A DNA stretch of 64,000 bases from Erinaceus europaeus (taxonomy: Eukaryota > Chordata > Mammalia > Eulipotyphla > Erinaceidae). The stretch covers positions 81,078,570 through 81,142,569 of the forward strand of contig NC_080177.1 in assembly GCF_950295315.1 (NCBI RefSeq). Reading direction: 5' to 3'. Both the position numbers and the translations under genes were made by a program. Of this stretch, positions 5,121 through 59,280 are shown piece by piece (position 1 is the stretch's first letter; the number at the start of each line of letters is the position of its first letter). Under the pieces are notes generated by a model. It ran no database searches. It had not been told where the DNA came from and saw only the letters and a list, made by a program, of their open reading frames with translations.

Positions 5121-5505
5121 GGGGGTACTCACTGCAAACTCTAGTGTACTACTGCTTTCAGGTATATATTTGCCCTGGTTTATGGATACGTGTGGACATA
5201 TGCTCTATCTCCTGGAACCTGGTCTATATCTAGGTTTTGGGACTTTGTTAGTAAGTGAACCACCTGGAATGGAATTAGAGAATACTATGAAAGGAAAGGT
5301 CTCACATGAGTGATGAAGCTGATGGGTTGTCATTCCACACCTGAAGTCTCTGGACACAGTCTGAAGTGAAGCATGCTGGGGTGGCACTCATTGTGTTGAT
5401 TAGATTGCGATCAGAGGATGCATTGGATCGACCTTCCCGTGGTGCATCTCGTGAGTACCCATTCATTGGGGAAACTGATGATCCTTCCTAGCTGACTGAA
5501 TCCAC

Positions 5506-8485
5506 ATGGATCCCAGTCATTTTCAAAGCCAGCAACAAGCAGCTCCTGACAGCTTTCAAGCTGTTGGTCCTGCTCTTCAAGTCCTCCAACTTAATGTTGA
5601 GGGGCTGTCCTTTGCCAAACGCGTTCTTATTGGTCAATTGGTGATTCAGCATCAGGCAGATGTTATCTGCCTACAAGAAACACATATAGCAGTCGATGAA
5701 GCTGCTCGATTCACCATCAGTGGATTCGATTTAATATGCTATAATCTCCATCCTAAACATGGCCGAGCCATCTACGCCAAATCGTGTCTTGCGGACGTTT
5801 ACCATACGGCCTCTTCGACCTTCTACGACTCCATTACTATTGGAACTATTCAGCTCGTCAGCGTATATAAGCCTCCCAGTGCCTCATGGGATAATGAGGT
5901 CCTGCCTATCCCGAATCACCCAGGCGTTTACGTTGGAGACTTTAATAGTCATCACCAAGACTGGGGATATTCCTCCACTCGTGCTGATGGCTCTATCTTA
6001 GCCGACTGGGCTTCAGCGAATGACCTCTCCCTATTATACGATCCCAAACAGCCAGGCTCTTTTCACAGTGCTAGATGGAATAAAGACTCTTCACCCGACC
6101 TGTGCTGGATTAGCACAGTCAACGGCCAAGCCTTTCCCGCTACGAGACATGTTCTCAAGATCTTCCCGCACAGTCATCACCGCCCAGCTATCATCCACAT
6201 TGATCTCCAGCTCCCACTGATTCTGTGCTTGGAGAAACTAAGATGGAACTTTCAGAAAGCAAACTGGTGTCTGTTCAGTGATCTTACCAACAAATCTATT
6301 CCTGCAATTCCAATTAACTCTATCCCCTCTGAAAATTTCTATAGGCGCTTCCGCCAAGCCATCTTCAAAGCAGCTTCCCAAGCCATTCCTCGTGGGAGAC
6401 GTGCTAACTATACGCCTTGTCTTGATGCTGAATGCGAGCAACTACTAAAGCAGTATGTTGAGTCGGGCGACCCAGATGTGGCTGACCACCTCATTGCCTC
6501 CCTGGATGCAGCACGCCAAGCCCGCTGGCAACAACTCACGGAAAGTCTGAACTTCACCCACTCAAGTAGGAAGGCCTGGAAGCTTCTTCACAGACTGGGT
6601 GCCGGTAGCCAACCCCCTCCCATCTCCCATCCTCCCGTCTCTCCAAACTCAGTGGCCAGTCACCTAACTCAAGTTGGACGTGCTAAGATCGACCCAGTCT
6701 GGAAAAGAGAAATTTCCCATGAGTGATCGTCCCACTTCCAGTTATCTTGTCCATCTCCAAAACTCTCTCCCTTTACACTGTCTGAACTGGAAGACTTTGA
6801 AGAGGGTTAAACCAGGAACAGCTGCTGGCTATGATAACATCACCCCAGAACTCATTCTTAACCTGGGTCCCACGGCAAAGAAGTGGCTTGCTTCATTCCT
6901 GTCCCACATCTTGGAATCTGAGTCTACGCCCAATGTTTGGCGTTGTGTGAAGATTATAGCGGTTTTGAAACCAAAGAAAGACCCAACACTGGCCGCCAGC
7001 TATAGACCAATTTCTCTCCTCTCCGTGTGTTACAAACTCCTTGAGAGGCTGCTTCTGTCACGTATTTCTCCTCTTACAGAGAAATTCCTATCACCTGCCC
7101 AGGCAGGTTTCTGCCCAGGAAGATCTATCTGCGAACAAGCCCTGGCCCTCTCAACTTACATTGAAAATGGATTCCAGAAGAATTTAAAGATGGGTGCTGT
7201 CTTTGTTGATCTCACAGCAGCCTATGACACGGTCTGGCACCATGGTCTCCTGGTCAAGATCTCAAGATGCCTGCCTCCATGGGTGGCCAACACTATATCG
7301 TTTCTTCTCCAAAACAGAAGATTCCAGGTACATCTGGGTGACAAGTCTAGCAGATGGAGACTTGTCTCAAGTGGCCTCCCCCAGGGCTCTGTTCTGGCTC
7401 CTACGCTATTTAATATTTACATCAATGACCTCCCAGAAACTTCTTCAAGGAAGTTCATCTACACCGATGACATCTGCTGTGCAACTCGGGCATCCAAGTT
7501 CGACATCCTCGAGGAAACACTCACGAAAGACATGTCTCTGATATCTGATTACTGTAAAAAATGGCGACTAATCCCTAGCACTGCAAAAAACGGTATTATC
7601 TGTTTTCTATCTACACCATGCCTTGGCCTCGCTTGAGCTTAATATGCAGCTTGGCGATACGAGAATCTGGCATGAAGCCCAGCCAGTCTATCTTGGCGTT
7701 ACTCTCGATCGCACTCTGTCATTTCACAAACATCTCATAAAAACTGCAGCAAAGGTGGGTGTGAGGAATCACATCATTGCAAGACTGGCCAGCTCCTCAT
7801 GGGGCGCGAGCGCTTCCACACTACGATCATCATCTCTGGCATTCTGCTATTCCACTGCAGAATACTGTGCCCCAGTATAGTTCCGTAGCCCCCATGTCCA
7901 CTTGGTCGATTCCAAATTATATTCCTCCATGAGGATAATTTCTGGATCCATCCGTTCCACCCCGGTTCCATGGCTGCCAGTTCTCAGTAACATCGCCCCG
8001 CCAGATATTCGTCGGGATGCGGCATCATCTAAGTTCATTTCCCACGTCTACGCTCGACCGGACCTGCCAATATACGCGGATATCTTCGCCCACCCTGTTC
8101 AGCGTTTGACGTCTCATCACCCAATCTGGTCCCCTACGCCTACACTGAACTTCTCTGTTCCAGTCTCTTGGAAACAGAGCTGGCAGTCAGCTGAGGTCAA
8201 GAACAAACACCTCATCACAGACCCCTGCGAGCGTCAACCCGGCTCTGACCTAGCACATTATGATCGGGCCCTCCTCAATAGCTATCGAACAGGCCATGGC
8301 CGGTGCGCCGCTATGTTCCATCGCTGGGGAGCCAGAGACGACCCGAACTGCCCCTGAGGCTCCGACAGACTATGACCCACATAGTCAACGACTGCCACCT
8401 CTCCAGATTCAAAGGAGGTCTCGAAACTTGACATCAGGCTCAACCTGATGCTGTTGACTGGCTACGGAAGAAGGGCAAACGCTAG
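5506..8485 (+). pseudogene. LINE ORF: AP endonuclease-reverse transcriptase, broken
   Basis: One ancestral frame of about 990 codons starts at ATG 5506. Residues 1-235 are an APE-type endonuclease with a complete site: N30 (LQLNVEGL), E58 (QETH), Y121 (VYKPP), D145 and N147 (GDFN), SPD at 196-198, and H225 (SHHRP). The RT region lies at about 6840-7600: SYRPISLL, QAGF, motif A FVDLTAAYD, motif B GLPQGSVLAP, motif C YTDD (7460-7471) in place of the usual YADD. A Cys/His motif near 8345-8400 is recognisable in the 153-bp copy but broken here. Breaks in this copy: TGA 6724-6726, a shift near 6795, an extra A in the A-run 7585-7590, TAG 7878-7880, TGA 8355-8357 and a 1-nt loss near 8363. TGA 8429-8431 is shared with the short copy, and TAG 8483-8485 is the end of the reading frame. 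It is inactive, but the few lesions point to a fairly young copy. Confidence 0.88.
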
Positions 8486-8501
8486 AAGAAGAAGAAGAAG
8501 C
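8484..8501 (+). repeat. (AAG)n tail of the Jockey-like LINE
   Basis: About five AAG units follow the TAG stop codon directly, so the element has virtually no 3'UTR. This microsatellite tail is the 3' end in all three copies. Confidence 0.9.
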
Positions 8502-8810
8502 GGATGCAATATTATTTGATAAGAATTGGGAGAAGCATACAGGAAAGTGGGCCCTACCCTAGGGTCCCAGGACTGGGGGAAGTTTAGGCTCTATAGTGAA
8601 AATCTGAGGTTCCTGCTGTCTTAGAGTTCAAGAGGACAATGGATAGTTATTGTTATCATCACATTATTTGGTAATTGGGTTAACTTTGAAAAGTCCCTTT
8701 GTTAGACATACAATCAATTTCCCCCCCTTTCATATTAATTAAATAGTGATTTACATGACTACAATTTAATAGGTGTATACATAAACACCATTCCCACCAC
8801 CAAAAGATTG

Positions 8811-10715
8811 TGTTCATCAGAGATACTGGTCTGTAGTTTTCCTTTTTTGTTGTATCTCTCTCTGTTTTTGGTATCAGGGTGATGGCTTCATAGAAGGTGG
8901 GAGGGAGTGTTCCTGTTTCTTCGATCTTATGGAAAAGTTTTGAAAGTATGGGTACTAACTGTTTCCTGAAAGTTTTGTAGAATTAGTTTGTGAAGCCATC
9001 TGGTCCTGAAACCAAAGTCCTACTTTTGCTGTTGGGGAGATTCTTTTTTTATTTATTTTTTATTTTTATTTATTTATTTATTTTCCCTTTTGTTGCCCTT
9101 GTTGTTTTTCATTGTTGTAGTTATTGATGTCGTCATTGTTGGATAGGACAGAGAGAAATGGAGAGGAGGGGAAGACAGAGAGGGGGAGAGAAAGACAGAC
9201 ACCTGCAGACCTGCTTCACCACTTGTGAAGCGACTCCCCTGCAGGTGGGGAACCGGGGGCGTGAACCGGGATCCTTAGACCAGTCCTTGAGCTTTGCGCC
9301 ACCTGCATTAGGGAGATTCTTAATAACGGTTTCTATTTCTTTGTCTGTGATTGGTGCATTTAGGTTTTGTAGTTCTCCTTGGTTCAATTTTGGAAGAGCA
9401 TATGTTTCTAGGAATTGTTCCATTTCTTCCAGATTCTCTAGTTTGGTGGCGTATAGTTCTTCATAGAAGTTTTGCATGATTTTCTGTATTTCTGTGGTGT
9501 CAGTTGTGATATCTCCTCTATCGTTTACAGTTCTATTAATTTGAATCTTCTCCCTTTTTTTGTTTAGTGAGTCTGGCTAGGGGTTGTCAATTTTGTTTAT
9601 TTTTTCAAAGAACCAACATTTGGCTTCATTGATCTTTTGTATGGTTCTCTTATTTTTGATGTTGTTTATTTCTGCTCTAATTTTAGTGATTTCTGTCCTT
9701 CTGGTTGCTTTAGGGTTCCTTCGTTCCTCTTCCTCTAAGTCCTTGAGGTGTGCAGTAAGGTCATTTATTTGAGCTTTTTCTTGTTGTTTAATATGTGATT
9801 GTATGGCTATGAGTTTCCCTCTCAATACTGCTTTATTTGTGTCCCAAATATTTTGATAGGTTGTGTCTTCATTTTCATTTGTTTCCAGGAACATTTGAAT
9901 GTCTTGCTTGAGTGAATCTCTGACCCAGTGGTTCTTAAGGAGTATGTTGTTTAGTTTCCAAATTCTGTGACTTTTAATAATTTTCTGTTTGTTGTTAAAT
10001 GTTAGTTTTACTGCACTGTGGTCTGAGAAGATACTTGGGATGATTTCAATGCTCTTGAATTTATTTATTTTTGCTGTCTTTGTGGCCTAAAATGTGGTCT
10101 ATCCTTGAGTATGTGTGGTGTGGATTTGAGAAGAATGTGTATTCCAGTTTTTAAGGGTGAAGAACTCTGAAAATGTCCAGGAGGTCTAATCTGACTATCT
10201 CTTCATTTAATTCTCTTGTTTCTTTCTTGGCTCTCTGCTTTGTTGATCTAAGTGTGAGAGTGGGGTGTTAAAATCTCCCACTATTATTGTATTACTATTG
10301 ATGTGTTTTTGAAATTCTTTCAGTAGGTGCTTGATTTATTTAGTTGGTCCCTGATTGGGTGCATAGATGTTAATAATTGTTAAGTCTTCTTGGCTGATTG
10401 ATCCTCTAATCAGTATGTAATGTCCTTGCCTTTTATTACTTTATTTAATTTAAAATCTATCGTGTCTGAGATGAGAATGGCTGTTCCAGCTTTTTTTTTT
10501 TTTTTTTTTTTTTTGTGGTCCATTAGCCTGTATGATAGTTTTCTATCCTTTCACTTTAAGTCTGTGTTTATCCTGCTGTGTCAGATGGGATTCTTGCAAG
10601 CAGCATATGTTTGGGTTATGTTTTCTGATCCATCCTCCCACTCTGTACCTTTTGATGGGTGAGTTTAAGCCATTGACATTTAGTGATATTATGAATTTAA
10701 TGTATTGTAGTGCCA
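8811..10715 (-). pseudogene. L1 ORF2 remnant: endonuclease and first RT block only
   Basis: On the minus strand it begins with ISLNVNGLNSPIKRYRV and CCLQESHL (endonuclease N and E), then NIYAPN, VGDFNTPLS and SDHSAVKL, all L1 endonuclease blocks. The linker follows (…[15 protein letters not shown]…, open at 9577-9894) and then …[11 protein letters not shown], the first RT motif, where it ends at about 8811. RT motifs A to C are missing. Several stops and a SINE (9046-9310) interrupt it, so no active protein is possible. Confidence 0.88.
9046..9310 (-). mobile_element. SINE-A inside L1 ORF2, with TSD
   Basis: GGGAGATTCTT lies at 9035-9045 and 9311-9321. The head is slightly 5'-truncated, ending at 'gcgccacctgc'. 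The ORF2 reading continues on both sides. Confidence 0.93.
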
Positions 10716-11663: not shown

Positions 11664-13137
11664 TGTAGTAGTTGTTTTATTTGCTCTTGATCTACCATTT
11701 TTTTTATTAATGTGTTTCTTATTTTTAAGTTCTGTTGTTCCTCAGTTGTTGTGTTTTGAGTACAGGTAACGCTGTACTAAATACCTTTATGACAAATGCA
11801 ATCACCAACCTCTGAAATTACAATAGCAACTGAAGCAAGGATTGAAGCAGTTTAACCACTACCAGTTAGCCAAACAATGTCTCTAGTCTGTGAAAAAATA
11901 GCAACCAAGTCCAAGTGAAGAAGAAAGTGAAAGGAAAAAAAGGGATGGCAAGAATAGACAATTATGCAAATCTACTATCCCCTATATATTCTAGGGGTAG
12001 CAAGAGGAGAAAGGGAAGTAGATCAGAGATACACACATAGAGAGTCCACTCTGTGTCAGATTTATTCTACAAAATAATTCACAAATAAATATCAGTGAAT
12101 TCAGAAAGCCGAAGAAGGAGGAAGAAAGGAAGACAAGAAAAAGAAAAAAAAGAAGAAAAAGAAGAGAGAGAAAAGATAAGAAAAATAACTGTAATAAAAG
12201 ATCAGTGAAAGGAAAGTGTTTATTTTTTTATTTTTAAATTTTTTGATTAGCTAGAAGGAGGGAGAAGGGGAGTGTGGGTAGAGGAGGTGGGAGTAGTGAA
12301 ACAAGTTCCTCTTGCAATGGGTAATCCGCCCAGTCCTTTAGTATTGGAAAATACACTAAGAGTCAATTCTGGTCAACCTAAAGGAGGGGGGAAAGGGATA
12401 CACCTATATATATTAATAATAAAATAGAGCAGGGTAAAAACCTGCCCCAGATTGCCTCAAGCAGCCTGAGCAGAGGCAGCTGATTGTTAAGAAAGTAAAG
12501 CAGACAGACAAAACAAACAAACAAACAAAAACCCAAAAACAAAACAAAAAGAGGAAAAAAAAAGAAAAAACACCTCAGGGCAGTCTTTCCCATTTGTAGT
12601 TCCAGTTGGCTACTTCTTCTTCTAGCGTTTGCCCTTCTTCCGTAGCCAGTCAACAGCGTCAGGTTGAGCCTGATGTCAAGTTTCGAGACCTCCTTTGAAT
12701 CTGGAGAGGTGGCAGTCGTTGACTATGTGGGTCATAGTCTGTCTGGAGCTGCAGGGGCAGTTTGGGTTGTTGGCTACTTAGACAGAAGGAAAGAGGGACA
12801 AGGGTTTCAGAAAGGAATAGGAAAGGAACAAAGCCCCTGCTGGGCCAGGAATCCTGGTAAAGAAAGAAGCTCAGCAGGGGAGGCTGCTAGGAGCCTGCTA
12901 GGAGCAGCCTGGTTTTGGGGAGAGGGGGCAGGGGTGTGCTTCTGGAATAATAAAAAGTTTTTCCTTTCTTTTTTCCTCTATATTCTAACCCAAAATGATA
13001 TATATTTACCCCCTTGGAGTCACAGCTATGACCCCAAATTTATTGTCTTTCTGAAGGCAAAAAATCCTACCTTTTCCAGCAGTTGTTGTCAGGACTCAGG
13101 CTAGTAGCTCCATCTTGGTCACCATCTTGGCTCCGCC
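11664..13137 (-). other. L1 5'UTR of the composite element
   Basis: Non-coding sequence upstream of ORF1, ending in the L1 start 'gccaagatggtgaccaagat'. It should hold the L1 internal promoter, but I cannot point to specific sites. It includes a purine-rich stretch (about 12115-12180) and the 153-bp Jockey-like insertion. Confidence 0.75.
12616..12768 (-). mobile_element. 5'-truncated copy of the Jockey-like LINE, with TSD
   Basis: The last 153 bp of the LINE on the minus strand, nearly identical to 8347-8499, flanked by GTTGGCTACTT at 12605-12615 and 12769-12779. Here the C-terminal Cys/His segment reads through (NCPCSSRQTMTHIVNDC), showing the frame that is damaged in the long copy. The TGA after LET is present here too. 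Confidence 0.92.
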
Positions 13138-26149: not shown

Positions 26150-26346
26150 AGGGGCTGGACAGTGGCACAGTTGGTAGTGTGCACATGTGACAGTGTGCCA
26201 GGACCCAGGTTCAAGTCCTTGTTCTCCACCTGCAGGGGTGAGGCTTAATGAGCAGTGAAGCAGTGCTACAGGTGTTTCTCTCTCTCCCTCTATATTCTAA
26301 GCCTTCCCTCTCCATTTCTGTTTTATTCAAAACAAATAAAATATTA
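26150..26346 (+). mobile_element. SINE-B with perfect TSD
   Basis: AAAATTTTGATTTA lies at 26136-26149 and 26347-26360. Confidence 0.93.
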
Positions 26347-43440: not shown

Positions 43441-43468
43441 AAATTCTGCATTTTCTACCAGAAATAAT

Positions 43469-43492
43469 CTTCTTCTTCTTCTAGCATTTGCC
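43469..43492 (-). mobile_element. 24-bp copy of the Jockey-like LINE, with 12-bp TSD
   Basis: The segment is the complement of the last 24 bp of the LINE (final Gly-Lys-Arg codons, TAG, AAG tail), with one difference: CG has become CA, as by CpG decay. ACCAGAAATAAT flanks it perfectly at 43457-43468 and 43493-43504. Such an extreme 5' truncation would be missed by standard repeat masking. Confidence 0.87.
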
Positions 43493-59130: not shown

Positions 59131-59267
59131 GGCTGTTTCCAGGGTCCCTCGCGCAGCCTATACAAGCAGTGGATGCATGCACTACTCAGGAGGCTGCTGT
59201 TTGCAGCCACTGCACATGCACACGGGGCGCCATGGGGAGGCCAGCACGGTCGGCTTAATTGGCTGCA
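59131..59267 (-). ncRNA. SNORA70: SNORA70 (U70) H/ACA snoRNA copy
   Basis: 137 nt on the minus strand beginning TGCAGCCAATTAAGCCGACC. H box ACAGCA lies at 59195-59200 between two hairpin-forming halves, and the ACA box (59134-59136) lies 3 nt before the end, the H/ACA layout. SNORA70 normally sits in an RPL10 intron, and here it is followed by RPL10 exons, which supports the name. The parent gene's copy directs pseudouridylation of rRNA. This retrocopy has no host promoter visible and its pairing loops differ from the human sequence as I recall it, so function is doubtful. Confidence 0.85.
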
Positions 59268-59280
59268 GACATTTCATAGT

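Follow-up and report, generated by a model that had tools for sequence, protein, structure and literature searches.

Positions 5416-8501 of the window (the whole stretch of hedgehog DNA that was analysed, 64,000 nucleotides) hold a full-length but inactivated member of the hedgehog Vingi family, a reading to which we give a probability of about 0.94. We infer that the family is the one entered in Repbase as Vingi-1_EE, with which the element was compared by description. Its clade is most likely Vingi, related to Ingi, and not Jockey/CR1, as indicated by host type, structure, derivatives and the literature. Both the hedgehog Vingi and the likelihood of its horizontal origin have been published before; the element is known, not new.

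Results

Copies in the genome and features of the window

The genome searched for copies comprised 2.72 Gb in 1172 contigs. In the protein search 124 of 47,882 candidates were scored, all of them matching, and in the DNA search 40 of 8,842 candidates were scored, giving 43 match rows (the window copy is included in both searches). With these matches in the same genome, the element is not a chance resemblance. A recent LINE of the Jockey/CR1 group in a mammal had been proposed in an earlier note on this DNA; a non-L1 LINE with a fairly recent expansion, rightly regarded there as unusual for a mammal, is confirmed. The features identified are listed in Table 1.

Table 1. Features of the Vingi-type element and of its siblings in the window
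Feature	Position	Strand	Basis
Full-length inactive Vingi-type LINE, tail included	5416..8501	+	Body, (G)GGATGCAT 5' terminus and 3' end common to sibling copies
GGATGCA, 5' terminus of the element, coincident with the target sequence	5416..5422	+	16 of 25 copies with a 5' end, window copy included
Remaining short 5' leader	5423..5505	+	First in-frame ATG at 5506
APE endonuclease and linker frame	5506..6726	+	Pfam Exo_endo_phos and Exo_endo_phos_2; catalytic residues; nonsense codon at 6724 ends the frame
Reverse transcriptase frame	6794..7636	+	RVT_1 (1.5e-30), alignment; preceded by a 2-nt loss, out of the family frame from A6 near 7585
RT active-site codons, YTDD in this copy	7460..7471	+	YADD in 25 of 35 copies
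C-terminal region	7572..8483	+	CX1CX7HX4C motif (CPCGYRQTMTHIVNDC) in sibling copies; interrupted here by TAG (7878) and by the loss of 1 nt near 8363
(GAA)n tail	8484..8501	+	Variable GAA-repeat tail in sibling copies
Target GGATGCA	8502..8508	+	Single occurrence in the empty paralog
5'-truncated sibling, about 160 bp of the 3' end	12610..12770	-	95.7% identical; GTAGCCAAC repeats on both sides
Extremely 5'-truncated sibling, 25 bp of the 3' end alone	43468..43492	-	Between 12-bp ATTATTTCTGGT repeats

Protein domains

Pfam domains identified in the window copy were Exo_endo_phos_2 (2.7e-12), Exo_endo_phos (8.4e-11) and RVT_1 (1.5e-30). The six APE residues named earlier (N30, E58, Y121, D145, N147 and H225, numbered from the ATG at 5506) were all confirmed in their places. 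The YTDD motif, also reported earlier, is present but is a minority reading in the family, where YADD was identified in 25 of 35 copies, YTDD in 5 and other readings in 5; CpG decay would explain the change from YADD to YTDD. The sibling copies carry a C-terminal CCHC motif, shortly after which the protein stops, and the combination of this motif with PF14529 is shared by the siblings and their relatives. RNase H gave no Pfam match in the C-terminal region of the window copy, nor was its model identified in the frames of two siblings (L019 and L026) at E up to 10, within HMMER filters. The best solved-structure matches of a sibling protein were R2 and L1 ORF2p.

The broken reading frame

The single open reading frame described earlier was refuted by comparison with 34 sibling copies, which revealed two nonsense codons and three indels. 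This alignment comprises 35 of 50 loci (L009-L058, window copy included), those starting by query position 1000 and ending after 3000; the other 15 were excluded. The nonsense changes, TGG to TGA at 6724 (TGG in 34 of 35 copies) and TGG to TAG at 7878, were each identified in the window copy alone (1 of 35). The 2-nt loss near 6794 recurs in L013, and L011 has a larger gap at the same place, while the 1-nt loss near 8363 is absent from the 34 other copies. The third indel is in a run near 7585, A6 in place of the A5 of the open frame, a variant also present in 17 of the 34 other copies. The endonuclease/linker part and the RT part lie in different frames, and the window copy is dead. The whole family frame of about 990 codons was open in none of the 50 loci examined, 13 of which extend to the 5' end, and the longest open piece among the 50 was of 712 aa.

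The presence of A6 in 18 of the 35 aligned copies, a share biased by the query, suggested a frameshifted defective subfamily moved in trans. This candidate was rejected: exact A6 sites numbered 297 genome-wide versus 6,832 for A5, and none of the other variants in the 35 copies was associated with A6 at p<1e-3. Being scarce in the genome and free of linked variants, A6 looks like recurrent homopolymer slippage.

The 5' end and the target site

In the earlier note the element started at 5423, preceded by GGATGCA as the left target site duplication (TSD); neither was borne out. The sequence (G)GGATGCAT, or a near variant, directly precedes TGGATCG in 5'-end copies at unrelated sites. GGATGCA itself stands before TGGATCG or its variant in 15 of the 24 other 5'-end copies (16 of 25 with the window copy), GCA does so in all 25, and the bases G, G, A and T upstream of GCA are present in 19, 22, 20 and 23 of the 25, respectively. 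TSDs of at least 10 bp were identified in twelve 5'-end copies, and in 11 of them the repeat ends 8-11 nt upstream of TGGATCG; the twelfth is L012, where the TSD overlaps the element. Since these bases are common to other 5' ends and the TSDs end further upstream, the element starts at about 5415/5416. The short 5'UTR noted earlier stands, with a leader of about 90 nt before the first in-frame ATG.

The left GGATGCA as a TSD had the support of an empty site in L021 (306-516), where a paralog of the target repeat lacks the insertion, with 188 of 213 bases identical and GGATGCA once, and was rejected because the upstream sequence of other copies identifies these bases as the element's own terminus. 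This empty paralog is located near another Vingi copy. The 5' junction of the window copy is thus either a 7-bp TSD overlapping the end of the element or an insertion without TSD. Most probably the target was duplicated and the left repeat fused with the identical 5' bases of the element, and L012 and L013 have TSD/element overlaps resembling this one; insertion without target duplication is possible.

The 3' end and insertion hallmarks

The AAG tail reported earlier was recognised as (GAA)n at the 3' end. The copies share this 3' end and many are 5'-truncated; 5' inversions were identified in 2 of the 40 scored DNA hits and in L016. A first TSD pass covered 46 loci (4 of 50 were dropped for a different 3' end), of which 15 had exact repeats of at least 9 bp, 10 had repeats of 6-8 bp and 21 had none. 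In the 15 loci with long TSDs, T was the most frequent base at four of the five positions preceding the repeat and tied with A at the fifth; 13 of these 15 TSDs start with A, a base that the longest-match rule may borrow from the GAA tail. A revised pass, in which 2 of 25 5'-end copies were dropped for want of a recognised tail, identified TSDs of at least 9 bp in 13 of 23 5'-end copies and in 16 of 33 truncated copies, and none of that length in the remaining 10 and 17. The shared 3' end, the GAA tail, the 5' truncations and the inversions are typical of elements inserted by target-primed reverse transcription.

By homology to LINEs, the single family protein of about 990 residues would nick the target DNA by means of its APE domain, and the RT would copy the element RNA from its GAA-repeat 3' end at the nick. 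Joining of the 5' end would follow, sometimes with the help of a few matching bases. Thousands of 5'-truncated copies would have been spread by this machinery, as would, presumably in trans, short internally deleted derivatives.

Other elements

Broken pieces of L1 ORF2 were identified downstream of the element, in 8680-9576 of the minus strand, with matches to L1 ORF2p at 8683-8982 (2.7e-16) and 9136-9576 (7.1e-27). The top RT matches of the genome include long frames, and the one tested (L004) is L1 ORF2, which identifies the genome as a mammal's. L004 resembles the Vingi-type element in its signatures of target-primed reverse transcription and differs from it in matching human L1 ORF2p over 1,256 residues and in being a very distant outgroup in the tree. 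The window also contains a SNORA70-like snoRNA sequence (59131-59268, minus strand, 82.8 bits, full model length), which is a gene or a retroposed copy, and a tRNA-like sequence with an unreadable anticodon (26156-26230, plus strand), perhaps the head of a SINE.

Family size, age and deleted derivatives

Exact 21-24-mer sites numbered 23,204 near the 3' end, 6,832 in the middle of the RT and 6,919 near the 5' end, counts in which diverged copies are underrepresented; reversed-sequence controls gave 0. Aligning genomic copies for divergence, a check that the earlier note had proposed, gave for the 35 copies a mean distance to the column majority of 1.2% (range 0.6-2.2%) when non-CpG sites were counted and of 2.3% when all sites were. 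Non-CpG columns contained 513 private versus 83 shared variants. The family is therefore the product of a star-like, fairly young burst. Mammalian DNA has a substitution rate near 2.2e-9 per site per year, at which the expansion would be of the order of 5-10 million years old; the age of the whole family may be greater, since the copies were chosen for their likeness to the window copy.

Among the first 100 listed 5' ends, seven had the exact A5 mid-RT site in phase within 3.5 kb, six of them at 2,120-2,129 bases. Twelve of the first 17 listed 5' ends (L059-L070) formed the derivative sample, which leans to deleted copies, as two of the five omitted had a known mid-RT site. Eleven of the twelve are internal deletions, where the first 108-198 nt are joined to the last 41-100 nt for a total of about 150-300 bp, mostly near 190; in the twelfth a segment is inverted. 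A single junction (140/3017), at which 8 nt match on both sides, recurs in 7 of the 12 chosen loci. The low share of in-phase mid-RT sites and the 11 deleted loci indicate that SINE-like internal-deletion derivatives are common.

Relatives and RT tree

The search with the sibling RT gave 1,291 relatives at E<=1e-3 among 6,656 candidates. The best match (P0001, 582 aa, 97% identical to the sibling RT) comes from an ENA contig of 2,072 bases and is probably host DNA. The other relatives among the best 120 of the 1,291 were 44-70% identical, one of them (P0012) being collinear at 58% identity over 679 aa. The search with the C-terminal part gave 558 relatives among 2,217 candidates, at most 57% identical among the 120 listed. 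Organism names were available for 18 of the 240 listed rows (3 of 120 in the RT search and 15 of 120 in the C-terminal search): Muraenolepis (fish), Uroleucon (aphid), Cordylochernes (pseudoscorpion, 12 rows), Trachemys (turtle), Phlebotomus (sand fly), Callosobruchus (beetle) and Moorena (cyanobacterium, perhaps foreign DNA). No mammal was identified among these 18 named rows, though mammal repeats may be poorly represented in that database. Over 334 aa, the Trachemys protein (P0147) has 52% identity. A viral carrier was also considered and rejected, a scan of viral contigs having given five pattern-matched stretches, none encoding a relative.

In a quick tree of 37 rows, three hedgehog-type rows share a stem 0.59 changes per column long and belong to a supported clade of 20; this clade includes the turtle row, which fills 35% of the tree columns, and rows without organism name. 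Their nearest neighbours are two rows without organism name (support 91), and several nearby forks are unsupported. None of the 37 rows is a labelled Jockey, CR1, L2, Ingi, Vingi or RTE reference.

Discussion

The Vingi clade, related to Ingi, was reportedly described in hedgehogs by Kojima, Kapitonov and Jurka in 2011 (MBE 28:17-20). The clade is said to have lost RNase H, to include in the European hedgehog a number of derivative families with internal deletions and to be absent from 33 other mammals, horizontal transfer being reportedly likely, not certain. The present element agrees with this in its APE and RT, in the lack of an RNase H match and in its internal-deletion derivatives. Compared by description only, the present element is like Vingi-1_EE in host type, recent expansion, APE and RT without RNase H, internally deleted non-autonomous derivatives and suspected horizontal origin. 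The Ingi of trypanosomes belongs to a clade related to Vingi, as the title of the 2011 paper has it; it carries an RNase H domain, whereas the hedgehog element has no RNase H match. The turtle protein P0147, probably a reptile Vingi, is collinear with the end of the RT and the C-terminal region, but it belongs to a separate family and is too distant for a recent donor. Vingi is given as 'reported in hedgehogs and reptiles' in a passage of PMC5753468, Vingi-1N3_EE has 311 copies at <1% divergence in Erinaceus europaeus according to a passage of PMC3183009, and a reptile member, Vingi-2_Acar, is named in a passage of PMC3747384.

The Jockey/CR1 group, to which the element had been assigned earlier, is most likely wrong, the only fitting report being that of the Vingi clade in hedgehogs. 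An element of the Jockey/CR1/L2 group would have the same APE and RT layout, and PF14529 is common to several clades of this kind; however, Vingi is the clade documented in the hedgehog, and the internal-deletion derivatives, the missing RNase H match and the turtle relative fit Vingi, which makes a Jockey/CR1/L2 origin very improbable. An RTE/BovB element is hardly credible at all. Elements of this type are of similar length and also end in a short-repeat tail, as does the present one with its 3.1 kb, APE and RT, but PF14529 together with a C-terminal CCHC motif, as carried by the sibling copies and their relatives, is a layout unlike that of RTE. A passage of PMC6542046 describes an RTE that entered the common shrew by horizontal transfer and states that this RTE had no hit in hedgehog, solenodon or star-nosed mole.

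The origin of the Vingi family is a question apart from the identity of the element. A passage of PMC3183009 counts the hedgehog Vingi among likely horizontal transfers. A close relative in an unrelated host, the kind of evidence that the earlier note had proposed to seek, was not found among the best 120 rows of the RT search, all at most 70% identical, P0001 aside. The family sits on a long stem of 0.59 with no close donor, so that horizontal transfer, as published, is still an inference from the patchy distribution; the present data neither prove nor refute it. Vertical descent from Vingi-bearing amniote ancestors, with survival only in the hedgehog lineage, is possible, if the less expected course. 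It would agree with the presence of Vingi in reptiles and of ancient Vingi traces (X12_LINE) in the human genome, both mentioned in a passage of PMC5753468, with one pre-amniote Vingi fossil in the human genome tabulated in PMC9004415, with the 52% identical turtle protein and with a hedgehog branch that is a long stem with no close donor. The young, star-like expansion, the lack of mammals among the named relatives (with the reservation made above on the database) and the listing as a likely transfer in PMC3183009 stand against it.

The additions made here are modest and comprise a copy census in the assembly, a corrected 5' end and a warning on the apparent left TSD. That the family or its short derivatives are still jumping in living hedgehogs, as a second LINE engine beside L1 and with insertion polymorphism between individuals, is doubtful. 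The family clearly illustrates a non-L1 LINE that either invaded a single lineage of mammals or revived within it, and that gave rise there to SINE-like derivatives.
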